Of a DNA stretch of 64,000 nt, positions 22,939-57,241 are shown piece by piece. Below the pieces are notes generated by a model. It was given only the letters and a program-made list of their open reading frames with translations, ran no database searches and was not told the origin of the DNA. Source of the stretch: Pseudobutyrivibrio ruminis CF1b (lineage in GTDB: Bacteria; Bacillota; Clostridia; Lachnospirales; Lachnospiraceae). A program made the translations under genes and the position numbers. Within the stretch, counting starts at the first letter, position 1; each line of letters starts with the position of its first letter. The stretch spans positions 1-64,000 of the forward strand of contig NZ_KE384121.1 of NCBI RefSeq assembly GCF_000424005.1, read 5' to 3'.

Positions 22939-23754
22939 CTATAAACAATACAGTTTTATCTTATCTTCAACTAATTTTGTGTTGATTGGAGCATCTCCAG
23001 TCTCCATCGTTATTATTAAACTCTGACCTAACATAATTCCGCCTTCTTCATAGTCATTTATCTTGCTGAAATTCTTTTTGGCGTAGTCAAAATCACTTAA
23101 TAAACCCAGGTGTTCCCAGTAGATTGTCTTTCTTTTCCTAACATTTAAGACCATAAAATCAGGATACACTATATGTCTTCCTACAAGTTCCAACCTCGGC
23201 TCATATCTATAAGGAACATGATACTTATCTAATAAATCAGCTATGATTCTTTCTGATTTAGACCTAACATAACCTCCATCAGAAGTGGCAATCTTTCCTT
23301 CTCCATAATATTCATTTTGATGATCAGGATTTTCTTCCAGCCATCTTTGAATAAAGGCTTCATCAGGTTCCACAAAAGGAACGAGAAGTTCTTTTCTAGC
23401 GGGATGCATTTTTTCATATATTTTACCTATTTCATCTATATCATATCCAGAAAGAAATCTTTTTAGTCTTCCATGTAATACATTTAACTTTTTATTTACT
23501 ATTTTTTCATAATCTCTTTGTGCTATCTTCTTTGCTATCTTGAATTGTTTAGTACTCACATATTTCTTTTTGCTTTTTTCTTTATCATATAGATAGTACT
23601 GATTACAGCCATTACTAGTTGAAACTATCAAGCTATAATCTGGTAAATTTTCAAGCCTTGAAATATTCTTGTTTGATTTATTGATTAGCTCTTCTAGCTC
23701 ATGCAGCTGTTTTTCTAACAAATCCTTATAATTAACCACTAACTCATACTCCAT
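22939..23754 (-). CDS. PD-(D/E)XK nuclease-like protein next to an inverted-motif array (locus A)
   Basis: A 271-residue protein without a known name. Residues 1-~145 are charged and helical, with a probable coiled coil at ~5-35 and a YYLYDKEK strand near 55. The C-terminal half resembles a restriction-endonuclease fold: VRSKSERIIADLL (first acidic residue), VPYRYEP, YPDFMVLN (catalytic-type aspartate) and IYWEHLG, where Glu-x-x would be the E-x-K position with the lysine replaced. No signal peptide or membrane segment. A paralogue of equal length lies at 55943-56758 and shares RKRKTIYWEHLG. The ribosome site is weak. Upstream is an array of CTACGGTCA motifs, one of which overlaps the likely -35 box. 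Nuclease activity is inferred from motifs only. Confidence 0.75.
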   Translation of the reverse strand: MEYELVVNYKDLLEKQLHELEELINKSNKNISRLENLPDYSLIVSTSNGCNQYYLYDKEKSKKKYVSTKQFKIAKKIAQRDYEKIVNKKLNVLHGRLKRFLSGYDIDEIGKIYEKMHPARKELLVPFVEPDEAFIQRWLEENPDHQNEYYGEGKIATSDGGYVRSKSERIIADLLDKYHVPYRYEPRLELVGRHIVYPDFMVLNVRKRKTIYWEHLGLLSDFDYAKKNFSKINDYEEGGIMLGQSLIITMETGDAPINTKLVEDKIKLYCL

Positions 23755-23777: not shown

Positions 23778-23805
23778 ATTATCTTTTCAACTATCCTACG
23801 GTCAA
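23778..23805 (-). promoter_or_regulatory. probable promoter of the locus A nuclease-like gene, overlapped by an array motif
   Basis: Read leftwards: TTGACC (23800-23805), 16 bases, GATAAT (23778-23783), 24 bases before the ATG. TTGACC is part of the first TGACCGTAG motif of the array, so a protein bound there would block the promoter. Confidence 0.5.
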
Positions 23806-24041
23806 TGGAACACTTTTTATATCTACGACCGTAGAAAATAATATCTAATTTCTCGAGCTACGGTCATTTGAAGATATTTTTTCTCTATGCCGTAGTTTTC
23901 CTGCTTATTTTTAATAATTTAAGCTTTTCAGCTAAAGCATAATCATGCATATAAACAAATTCTTAGTTTATGACCGTAGTTTTCATAAATAATTTCTTTA
24001 TGGCTACGGCATGAAGGTAATTTTTTACTTGGTGACCGTAG
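23796..24041. repeat. array A: inverted CTACGGTCA/TGACCGTAG motif pairs
   Basis: Seven motif copies lie between 23796 and 24041, at 23796(+), 23827(-), 23858(+), 23888(-), 23971(-), 24004(+) and 24033(-). Copies at 23888 and 24004 read GGC instead of GGTC. Six form three inward-facing pairs with outer ends 39, 38 and 38 bp apart (23796-23834, 23858-23895, 24004-24041); the copy at 23971 has no clear partner. The bases between the halves differ from pair to pair. The region has no gene. Confidence 0.9.
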
Positions 24042-55942: not shown

Positions 55943-56758
55943 TCAAATACAATACTTCTTAATCTTGTTCTCTACACTTTTAGCATCAAATGGTTTATCC
56001 TCTGATTCCATTGATATTAAAAGGTTATCTCCCACATTATACCCATTTTGTTCATATATGGCTATTTTTTCGAAGTTTTTCCTAGCATAATCTACATCTC
56101 CAAGCATTCCCAAATGCTCCCAATAAATAGTCTTCCGCTTCCTCACATTTAATATCACAAAATCAGGATAGACTGTATATCTGCTATTAAGCTCAAGCAA
56201 TGGCTCATAGCGATATGGCACATTATATTTATCCAGCAAGTCTGCAATTATCTTTTCAGATTTTGATCTAACATAAACACCTTGTGAGGTATAGTACTTA
56301 CCATCGCTTGGGAATGGATTCTGATTACCTGTATGCTCTTCCAGCCATCTTTGAATATACATTTCATCTGGCTCTATAATGGGGATTATCATTTTTTTCT
56401 TGGCTTCAGGCATATCCTCATATAGCTTAGTTATTATCTCTATATCATAAGTATTTATAATTTGCTCAAGCTTAGTCTTCTGCATTTCTAAAATATTTAC
56501 AGCAGCCATTTCATAATCCTTTTGAATAATTTTATTCACAAGCCTCAACTGCTTCTTGCCGGCATATTTCTTTATTCCAGTGCTTCTATCAACCAGATAA
56601 TATTGTGTGCTACCGTGACTTTTAGAAACATTTACTTTAAAGTCAGGAATATCTTTTAGCTTTGCGATATTTCTATTCCCTTTTGCTATCAGATTTTCTA
56701 TTTCATTCAATTGCTTTACTAAGTCCATTTTATAATTTTTCAACAGCCATTCCTCCAT
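55943..56758 (-). CDS. PD-(D/E)XK nuclease-like protein next to an inverted-motif array (locus B)
   Basis: A paralogue of the protein at 22939-23754, also 271 residues when started at the ATG at 56758; the two-codon-longer TTG start is not supported by alignment. N-terminal helical part with a probable coiled coil (~10-35) and STQYYLVDR near 55. The C-terminal nuclease-like part has VRSKSEKIIADLL, VPYRYEPLLEL, YPDFVILN and RKRKTIYWEHLG. The Glu-Lys of a classical E-x-K is replaced by Glu-His. No clear ribosome site; an array motif (GCCCGTAAA) lies 12-20 bases before the ATG. Upstream is an array of TTTACGGGT motifs. Function unknown; nuclease activity inferred. Confidence 0.75.
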   Translation of the reverse strand: MEEWLLKNYKMDLVKQLNEIENLIAKGNRNIAKLKDIPDFKVNVSKSHGSTQYYLVDRSTGIKKYAGKKQLRLVNKIIQKDYEMAAVNILEMQKTKLEQIINTYDIEIITKLYEDMPEAKKKMIIPIIEPDEMYIQRWLEEHTGNQNPFPSDGKYYTSQGVYVRSKSEKIIADLLDKYNVPYRYEPLLELNSRYTVYPDFVILNVRKRKTIYWEHLGMLGDVDYARKNFEKIAIYEQNGYNVGDNLLISMESEDKPFDAKSVENKIKKYCI

Positions 56759-56769
56759 AATCAACTACA

Positions 56770-57081
56770 TTTACGGGCGAAGCAAATAGATTACCTTTTT
56801 TACCCGTAAGTTTAAAAACACTAAAAAAATTTTTACGGGTATTATTTATAACTCCTGCAATATACCCGTAAATATTCCATCTTTTCACAGCATTTCCTCA
56901 TTATCCTAAAGTAACCTGCTCTCAATTTACGGGTGAATTCAGCCATTCAATATACTCACCCGTAACAACTTTTATTTCTTACGGGTAAAACTTACATTGG
57001 AGTCAATCCCGCCCGTAACCCTCAAAAACAACAATTTAAATTTACGGGTGCAGAGACAGTAAATAGCAATTTACCCGTAAA
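56770..57081. repeat. array B: five inverted TTTACGGGT/ACCCGTAAA motif pairs
   Basis: Ten motif copies form five inward-facing pairs: 56770-56809, 56832-56872, 56926-56965, 56979-57018 and 57041-57081. From the first T of TTACGGG to the last A of CCCGTAA every pair spans 39 bp, except 40 bp in the fourth. Bases between halves differ completely; gaps between pairs vary (22, 53, 13, 22). In pair 2 the arms extend symmetrically to TAT/ATA and in pair 3 to TGA/TCA. No ORF in the region. Confidence 0.93.
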
Positions 57082-57241
57082 TCCATTCTTCAACATCAAA
57101 AAATAAATTGGAAAACTTTGGCGAAATGAAATAATCTGCCATGACAGTGATAAATTAACATCACCTTTCAAACGATAGATAGAAATATAACTCCCTGCCA
57201 ATAAAATGTCAAGTCATCTGATGACTGCATCCCCACAAAAT
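57082..57241. other. non-coding stretch after array B
   Basis: AT-rich, no ORF and no further motif copies. A small inverted repeat AGTCATC/GATGACT (57212-57226) is the only structure I see. Confidence 0.45.

Follow-up and report, generated by a model that had tools for sequence, protein, structure and literature searches.

Predicted nucleases, many encoded beside arrays of paired DNA words, look like an undescribed DNA-recognition system of rumen and gut bacteria

CRISPR-Cas loci are built of identical direct repeats with unique spacers and are accompanied by cas genes. The REPIN/RAYT systems consist of inverted doublets of short words with dispersed gene-free copies and a cognate gene near its own copies; several families occur per genome, protein and word co-evolve, and the TnpA-REP (RAYT) protein is an HuH (Y1) enzyme acting on folded single-stranded REP palindromes (PMC3116915, PMC8266576). 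In TIGR-Tas, the Tas proteins carry a Nop domain and the arrays give 36-nt guides (PMC12045711).

Within the 64-kb stretch of DNA analyzed here (the window), one locus, locus B, combined a gene for a nuclease-like protein with an array of inverted word pairs. Its features were as follows.

55943..56764, minus strand: locus B gene, encoding a 273-residue nuclease-like protein
56771..57080, no strand: locus B array, five inward pairs of the half-site TTACGGG(T)
56771..56809, no strand: pair 1, outer span 39
56833..56871, no strand: pair 2, outer span 39
56927..56965, no strand: pair 3, outer span 39
56979..57018, no strand: pair 4, outer span 40
57042..57080, no strand: pair 5, outer span 39
57098..57154, minus strand: block distal to the array, TTTATCACT..TGGCAG..TTTCGCCA..TTTTCC, partly conserved at related loci
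57184..57212, minus strand: predicted sigma-70 promoter TTGACA-17-TATATT, 11/12 consensus, by consensus match only

Exact TTACGGG words were located at 56771, 56803(-), 56833, 56865(-), 56927, 56959(-), 56979, 57012(-), 57042 and 57074(-), which agrees in number, place and outer spans (39/39/39/40/39) with the five inward pairs described in the sequence-only reading. No further copy was found in the window; 2.28 copies were expected by chance, and ten were reached in 0/100 shuffles. Within-pair offsets were 32, 32, 32, 33 and 32, and successive pairs, measured from the last word of each to the pair that follows, were 30, 62, 20 and 30 apart. That the latter differ by about 10 and 32 gave an early hint of helical turns. 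The gene starts 6 bp from the nearest TTACGGG word and has 273 codons when counted from TTG; the 271 residues reported earlier correspond to an ATG two codons further on, and the phrases VRSKSE, YPDF and YWEHLG are present in the protein. The symmetric bases said to extend the pair arms belong in part to a longer half-site, TTACGGGT, present in 8/10 copies, and such symmetry taken alone is no evidence of strand pairing. When three pairs were folded as single strands, two beat all 200 shuffles and the third was equalled by 19/200. A pure hairpin or cruciform reading of the pairs was rejected, given their short stems and large loops and the one pair in three that was no better than shuffles.

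The order at locus B is predicted promoter, then array, then gene. Six promoter-like sites were found in the 701-bp region, compared with 3.5 expected. Part of the stretch 57098-57240, which includes the distal block, matched the upstream flanks of homologues by blast at E<1e-6 in ten other loci (L090, L060, L023, L020, L019, L024, L017, L018, L021 and L014). Since the array lies between the predicted promoter and the start codon, its binding should repress the gene, and such repression would be the simplest reading of the arrangement at this locus.

As the sequence-only reading had supposed, no described system with this build was found in listings and the starts of abstracts of the open-licence literature. 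The locus and its relatives look like an undescribed DNA-recognition system of rumen and gut bacteria, in which small nuclease-like proteins, many of them beside a paired-word array, apparently read that array with their own tip region. Unlike CRISPR-Cas repeats, the pairs are inverted and their inner sequence is free, and the protein has no Pfam match; the neighbors of the window gene were judged by eye. As in TIGR-Tas, a single effector gene lies beside an array in which the words differ from locus to locus and the spacing is constant within each (PMC12045711). Here, in contrast, none of 105 family members matched Nop in Pfam at E 0.001, no guide-like conservation was seen, and the arrays are phased on duplex DNA.

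The likeness to REPIN/RAYT extends to inverted short-word doublets dispersed outside genes and to cognate word-protein pairs that co-evolve, both of which are present here. The components differ: none of the 105 members matched HuH in Pfam, and a PD-(D/E)XK-like domain matching PDC-S68 was found instead. The half-sites are 7-8 bp long and are not palindromes (TTACGGGT, TACTACCT, TGCATCCCA), so that only the pair can fold; the pairs of an array follow one another at whole turns of the duplex, and separate hairpin blocks form the edges of some islands. REPIN/RAYT is the nearest functional parallel, alike in logic and not in parts. The leading candidate for the overall role is a REPIN/RAYT-like, self-maintaining repeat system, which is quite possible, though short of likely.

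A protein search of the same genome (G000) yielded nine copies of the gene, the other eight being 27-54% identical to the locus B protein. One of these lies in the window at locus A.

22942..23754, minus strand: locus A paralogue, 54% identical to the locus B protein
23796..24041, no strand: locus A array, CTACGGT(C) pairs starting at 23796, 23858 and 24004

When the window was divided into 195 tiles, loci A and B only were above the limit, the locus A array with a score of 2.2 being barely over the shuffle maximum of 2.0. The words at the nine copies were all different (TTACGGG, CTACGGT, GCAGTA, CACGTA(G), TACTACCT, GGCATAAA, TTTATCA, TATCGCA and TTTGTCAA). An array over the shuffle maximum, each with its own word, was present at 8/9 copies; that of L003 (GCAGTA, score 1.6) was not over this maximum.

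Among the matches listed, the family was represented in 28/29 genomes of the genus with 1 to 12 matches each, the exception being a genome that is 83% complete. Matches were found in 71/200 genomes of the bacterial family, some to the nuclease domain only, and in 21/291 genomes of the class at E 1e-20, several of these from other families. A scan of named genomes returned 72 relatives. Full-length ones occurred in other Clostridia as well as in Pseudobutyrivibrio, and relatives from other phyla comprised the C-terminal part only, from residue 133 or later. Carriage by viruses was considered and rejected. No relative was found in viral_contigs scanned with a single protein. Phages gave one match, in a 4.2 kb record without annotation; it spanned 84% of the query, and no word in the record formed two pairs. 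Seven plasmid records matched, none over 80% or more of the query and all limited to residues 139-271.

Arrays are a property of this protein family. With an exact-word detector, two or more like pairs were seen at 75/114 genus loci, duplicates included, compared with 0/114 shuffles, and at 13/28 loci from the family search compared with 0/28 shuffles. From the genus matches listed, 75 loci were taken for analysis; a 76th stretch, L115, was a stray without the gene. With a mismatch-tolerant detector, 118/165 distinct full-length genes had an array that outscored all 1304 shuffled flanks, profile spans under 225 and duplicate protein cores having been removed, as did 110/147 genes with 500 bp on both sides. 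The sequence-only reading had expected paired motifs beside homologues; with these 118 genes it was not refuted on this point, though 47/165 had no array above the shuffles. The same limit was passed at 16/23 class-level full-length loci, partly from other families, and in 0/155 control tiles at nuclease-domain-only loci (three nearly full-length-looking loci excluded). In 19/118 the best array lay 3' of the gene, a position not accounted for by simple blocking of a promoter. By the exact-word detector, the highest number of exact pairs was in the 3' flank of L049, with ten exact TTGATAA pairs in a 73 bp repeat. In G022, the upstream flank of L015 and L128:1200-1800 each mix TTACGGG and CTACGGT in a single array, perhaps an array in transition between specificities.

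The spacing of successive pairs was measured with a detector that constrained the within-pair offset and left the unit distance free; units outside 40-125 bp and same-word repeats with the same unit set were removed. In 109 arrays, the distances piled up near 52.5, 62.5, 73, 84, 94 and 105 bp. A period scan from 7 to 15 bp peaked at 10.5 bp with R 0.78 (217 units), and R was 0.79 with one unit per array; the nominal Rayleigh p of about 1e-30 is an overstatement, as related arrays remain in the set. Gap differences in 45 unequal-gap arrays peaked at 10.55 bp (R 0.74, n=59). The 31 arrays away from genes (58 units) peaked at 10.4 bp with R 0.79; 17 of these were checked in their DNA sequence, with the gene in none, and 14 were placed by pattern coordinates, away from genes among the matches listed. 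Class-level arrays (28 units) had R 0.84 at 10.5 bp and a peak at 10.25. The earlier claim that helical geometry matters was supported by this whole-turn spacing, both at genes and away from them. Whole-turn spacing over freely varying linkers suggests that duplex DNA is read on one face. Two subunits would share one inward pair, separated by about three turns of the helix, and dimers on neighboring pairs, lined up on one face of the duplex by this phasing, would probably stack.

In 17 close orthologous array pairs (one locus represented twice), differences were found at 17/1178 positions in half-sites, 389/2038 (19.1%) inside pairs and 298/1610 (18.5%) between pairs. Change in half-sites was about 13-fold slower than in the DNA inside pairs, a figure helped by ascertainment, as sites were found by word match. 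The sequence-only reading had proposed a target, guide or control element of the nuclease-like protein. That the array belongs with this protein was supported, most likely as its recognition and control element, and a guide RNA is disfavored by the duplex phasing and the free divergence of the inner sequence. An RNA-guided or RNA-processing system, in which the array is transcribed to give a hairpin or guide per unit, would draw on the predicted promoter, which would transcribe the array, and on the single-strand folding of two pairs out of three, which surpassed that of shuffles. Whole-turn spacing with variable linkers between, inner sequences that diverge as fast as the gaps, the 19 best arrays lying 3', and the lack of any Rfam match at 16 loci or Pfam match in 105 members all argue against it, and we regard it as most improbable.

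Gene and array were swapped together at one address. Beside a kinase gene, the TTACGGG gene and its array are present in G000, and a 54% identical protein with TGCATCC pairs in G019; beyond the array, from window 57108 on, the flanks of the two genomes are 92-94% identical. In G028, where the flank is present from window 57234, neither gene nor repeated pair was found. In G002 and G007, relatives lie near guaA with GCATCCC and CATCCCA arrays.

Half-site profiles of the 118 arrays were compared with segment-wise protein identity (6903 pairs, 3565 of them at 30-75% identity; the 47 array-less genes were excluded). Word similarity followed residues 41-69 (partial rank r 0.183), a value reached by 0/500 permutations; the other eight segments ranged from -0.05 to 0.04. 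After collapse to 89 clusters, this segment had r 0.138 compared with 0.093 for the next best, 166-190, and ranked first in 75% of bootstraps. Among nine-residue windows in the 89 clusters, 46-54 stood out with r 0.281, none of the other 49 exceeding 0.115. An association of N50 with TAC (25/34 versus 13/55 clusters) was picked after inspecting the table. Word specificity changes fast with protein divergence: words were shared (similarity >0.8) by 23/23 protein pairs above 80% identity, 96% of 46 at 70-80%, 34% of 68 at 60-70% and 7% of 236 at 50-60%. Within genomes, 0/180 array pairs had similarity >0.8, compared with 109/2980 between genomes, a comparison confounded by between-genome orthologues.

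In the AF2 model of the locus B protein (mean pLDDT 94.8), helices 12-35 and 70-105 form coiled-coil arms with a three-stranded beta tip (42-68) between them, followed by a helical linker and a nuclease domain, which begins after about residue 155 in the model and was assigned to about 150-272. The same elements were returned when the N-terminal 144 residues were modelled alone. Residues 46-54 form, in the models, a beta-hairpin tip on the coiled-coil arm. Consistent with the covariation, this hairpin very probably is the recognition part and reads one 7-8 bp half-site. Fold searches with the full-length and N-terminal models gave mainly coiled-coil look-alikes for the arm and tip. Arm-type and AP2-like DNA-binding domains have a three-stranded sheet fold related to integrase arm domains; such a fold was considered for the beta tip and was not returned by the fold search.

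The C-terminus is predicted to be a PD-(D/E)XK-like nuclease domain. The conserved acidic residues in the shared core fold that characterize such domains are present, E170, E187, D201, E216 and H217 being invariant in 105 aligned homologues. The usual position of the catalytic lysine (E-x-K) is occupied by E216-H217-L218; K168 is invariant and K233 nearly so in the 105 sequences, and either might substitute. None of the 105 members matched any Pfam family at E 0.001. In PADLOC, residues 149-271 matched profile positions 1092-1218 of the 1221 of PDC-S68 at E 1e-28, and a domain match to HEAT_CxxC_PD-DEXK was obtained at 6e-8. The C-terminal nuclease domain is common to this protein and PDC-S68, a candidate defense protein. 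PDC-S68 is about 1200 residues long and contains further parts besides this domain; the present protein has 273 residues. In Lachnospiraceae, two proteins join this nuclease domain to an SF1-type helicase core, which the present protein lacks: L181:3690-7397 (-) and L182:21-3752 (+) encode SF1-type helicases of about 1240 residues that end in the nuclease domain of the array proteins, and no array was found in 23 tiles at these two loci. A likeness to T7 endonuclease I and phage Holliday-junction resolvases was seen in a weak profile match (residues 156-196, E 0.03). Foldseek gave nothing against the PDB at 1e-3 (best DrdV, 0.026). Among viral models, 13 hits at 1e-3 or better included phage Holliday-junction resolvase and endonuclease I, yet TM-scores were low (0.27 to 0.31).

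The PDC-S68 and HEAT_CxxC_PD-DEXK matches would suit the alternative of an autoregulated defense nuclease, for which the cis array would be an operator that keeps a toxic nuclease low, dispersed arrays would be decoys or leftovers, and invading DNA would be attacked. So would the promoter predicted on the far side of the array, the presence in one genome of several copies whose words are distinct (none of the 180 within-genome array pairs exceeding similarity 0.8) and the patchy distribution, with matches in 71/200 family genomes, some to the nuclease domain only. Defense alone leaves unexplained the in-phase gene-less arrays of 2 to 5 pairs and the island copies within a genome described below, and we consider it unlikely.

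Motif pairs were also found without the gene, an outcome of the kind that the sequence-only reading had named as refuting it. The genome of the window contains 18 TTACGGG pairs, 5 at the gene and 13 in four arrays with no family gene in their surroundings; a reversed-pattern control gave 0 in this genome and one match each in G009, G017 and G022. Word, span and phase are preserved in the gene-less arrays, and for this reason we take them to be scattered sites belonging to this system. The intergenic position of dispersed pairs was judged by eye at L120-L123. The TACTACCT pattern occurred in 10/29 genomes, with 12 pairs in G000 and 40 in G027, TGCATCC in 20/29, and TATCGCA in 9/29 and none in twenty, each with a reversed control of 0. 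Five genomes with a known cognate gene had 10, 7, 20, 6 and 4 TATCGCA pairs, of which 7, 2, 16, 2 and 3 were away from the gene, and four further genomes, whose genes are only partly motif-typed, had 3, 2, 2 and 1. GGCATAA, one of the five words searched in the 29 genomes, gave no gene-less array and a gene array in G000 only; eight other genomes had one single pair each (five being one conserved sequence or close variants), compared with four in the reversed control. Single intact TGCATCC pairs adjoin TTACGGG arrays in G000 (L120:3308-3344, L122:3044-3080), and this word is absent from all nine gene-copy arrays.

The reading that we consider likely, on sequence and model evidence, is that of a sequence-specific nuclease with its own array as binding site, probably under its own control, the arrays spreading in the form of mobile islands. 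In the repeat-maintenance role considered above, arrays would bring the nuclease, whose domain weakly resembles junction-cutting enzymes, to islands, and it would help these to persist or spread. Arrays kept in phase at several sites on the chromosome and served by one reader, and the coiled-coil arms, would also suit a chromosome-organizing or partition-like protein in which the nuclease fold is structural and the arrays are anchoring sites. That idea is very unlikely, with acidic nuclease residues invariant in 105 sequences, copy numbers of 1 to 12 among the matches listed, a single genus genome of the 29 (83% complete) having no copy, absence of the gene from most family genomes sampled, and words that differ between close species.

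Some gene-less arrays lay inside MITE-like islands with terminator-like inverted ends and large hairpin blocks, with several related copies per genome (L138:1899-2591 in G000:C7; L130-L137 in G027). In G027, island copies at four or more internal positions were 79-97% similar, and further copies, possibly overlapping, lay at contig ends; the similarity did not extend past the island. The hairpin block that opens several islands folded far better than shuffles (z -7.6; other end -4.5). A search of the 29 genomes for this block gave 22 rows at 21 loci in 7 genomes; these loci are not independent, L292 and L296 being two ends of one island and the G027 copies being related. Arrays were present at 16/21 of these loci, with the words TACTACC, TTACGGG with TGCATCC, TGCATCC, TTTATCA or GACACGA; of the five loci without an array, three were cut by contig ends and two were not. 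That the block accompanies arrays of several words suggests island edges common to the word families. No family gene was found in loci L285-L301 and L149-L152, and in the flanks examined around gene loci the block was absent. Neither a target duplication nor a clean empty site was established.

The islands could instead be ordinary MITEs moved by an unrelated transposase, with the arrays as passengers and the gene regulating only itself. Inverted ends and hairpin blocks that gene loci lack in the flanks examined, and gene-less arrays without the block (L121, L122, L123, L139, L141 and L147), fit this account. Arrays of several word families beside the block at 16/21 loci would be odd for a passenger, and word and phase are kept in gene-less arrays, so that we hold it to be rather unlikely. 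For the self-controlling nuclease with spreading arrays we counted the G000 copies with their own words, arrays at 118/165 genes and 0/155 controls, phasing, covariation, slow half-sites, the address swap in G000/G019/G028, the gene-less arrays, the hairpin-block loci and the G027 island copies. Against it we counted the missing E-x-K lysine, the 47/165 array-less genes, GGCATAA without a gene-less array, the modest lead of residues 41-69, half-site ascertainment, blocks absent at gene loci, two uncut block loci without arrays, the 19/118 arrays lying 3' and the lack of an established target duplication or clean empty site. A fuller version, which we put forward tentatively as possible and somewhat doubtful, is a selfish or domesticated repeat system of two-part array nucleases with a fast word-switching beta tip and a phased cis array, which recruit themselves to cruciform-edged mobile islands and cut or resolve them so that islands spread and convert one another. 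If true, a Pfam-unmatched family would hold many DNA specificities on one scaffold, each labelled by its own genomic array, so that a recognition code would be readable from sequence alone, and repeat maintenance built on a nuclease, not a transposase, would have spread through rumen and gut Clostridia.

A 42-bp conserved sequence with TTACGGG ends and a palindrome-like core was found at G002:C16:122727, G012:C17:2998, G021:C40:16202 and G023:C24:21595. It is apparently unrelated to the arrays and was set aside from the TTACGGG count (all of G002, G021 and G023; one of four in G012). The island at G000:C1:570650 differed from its G019 counterpart by 156 bp, running from one CCCGTAA to the next CCCGTAA (L121:3151-3345 versus L124:3161-3199), with a second difference a few bases on.
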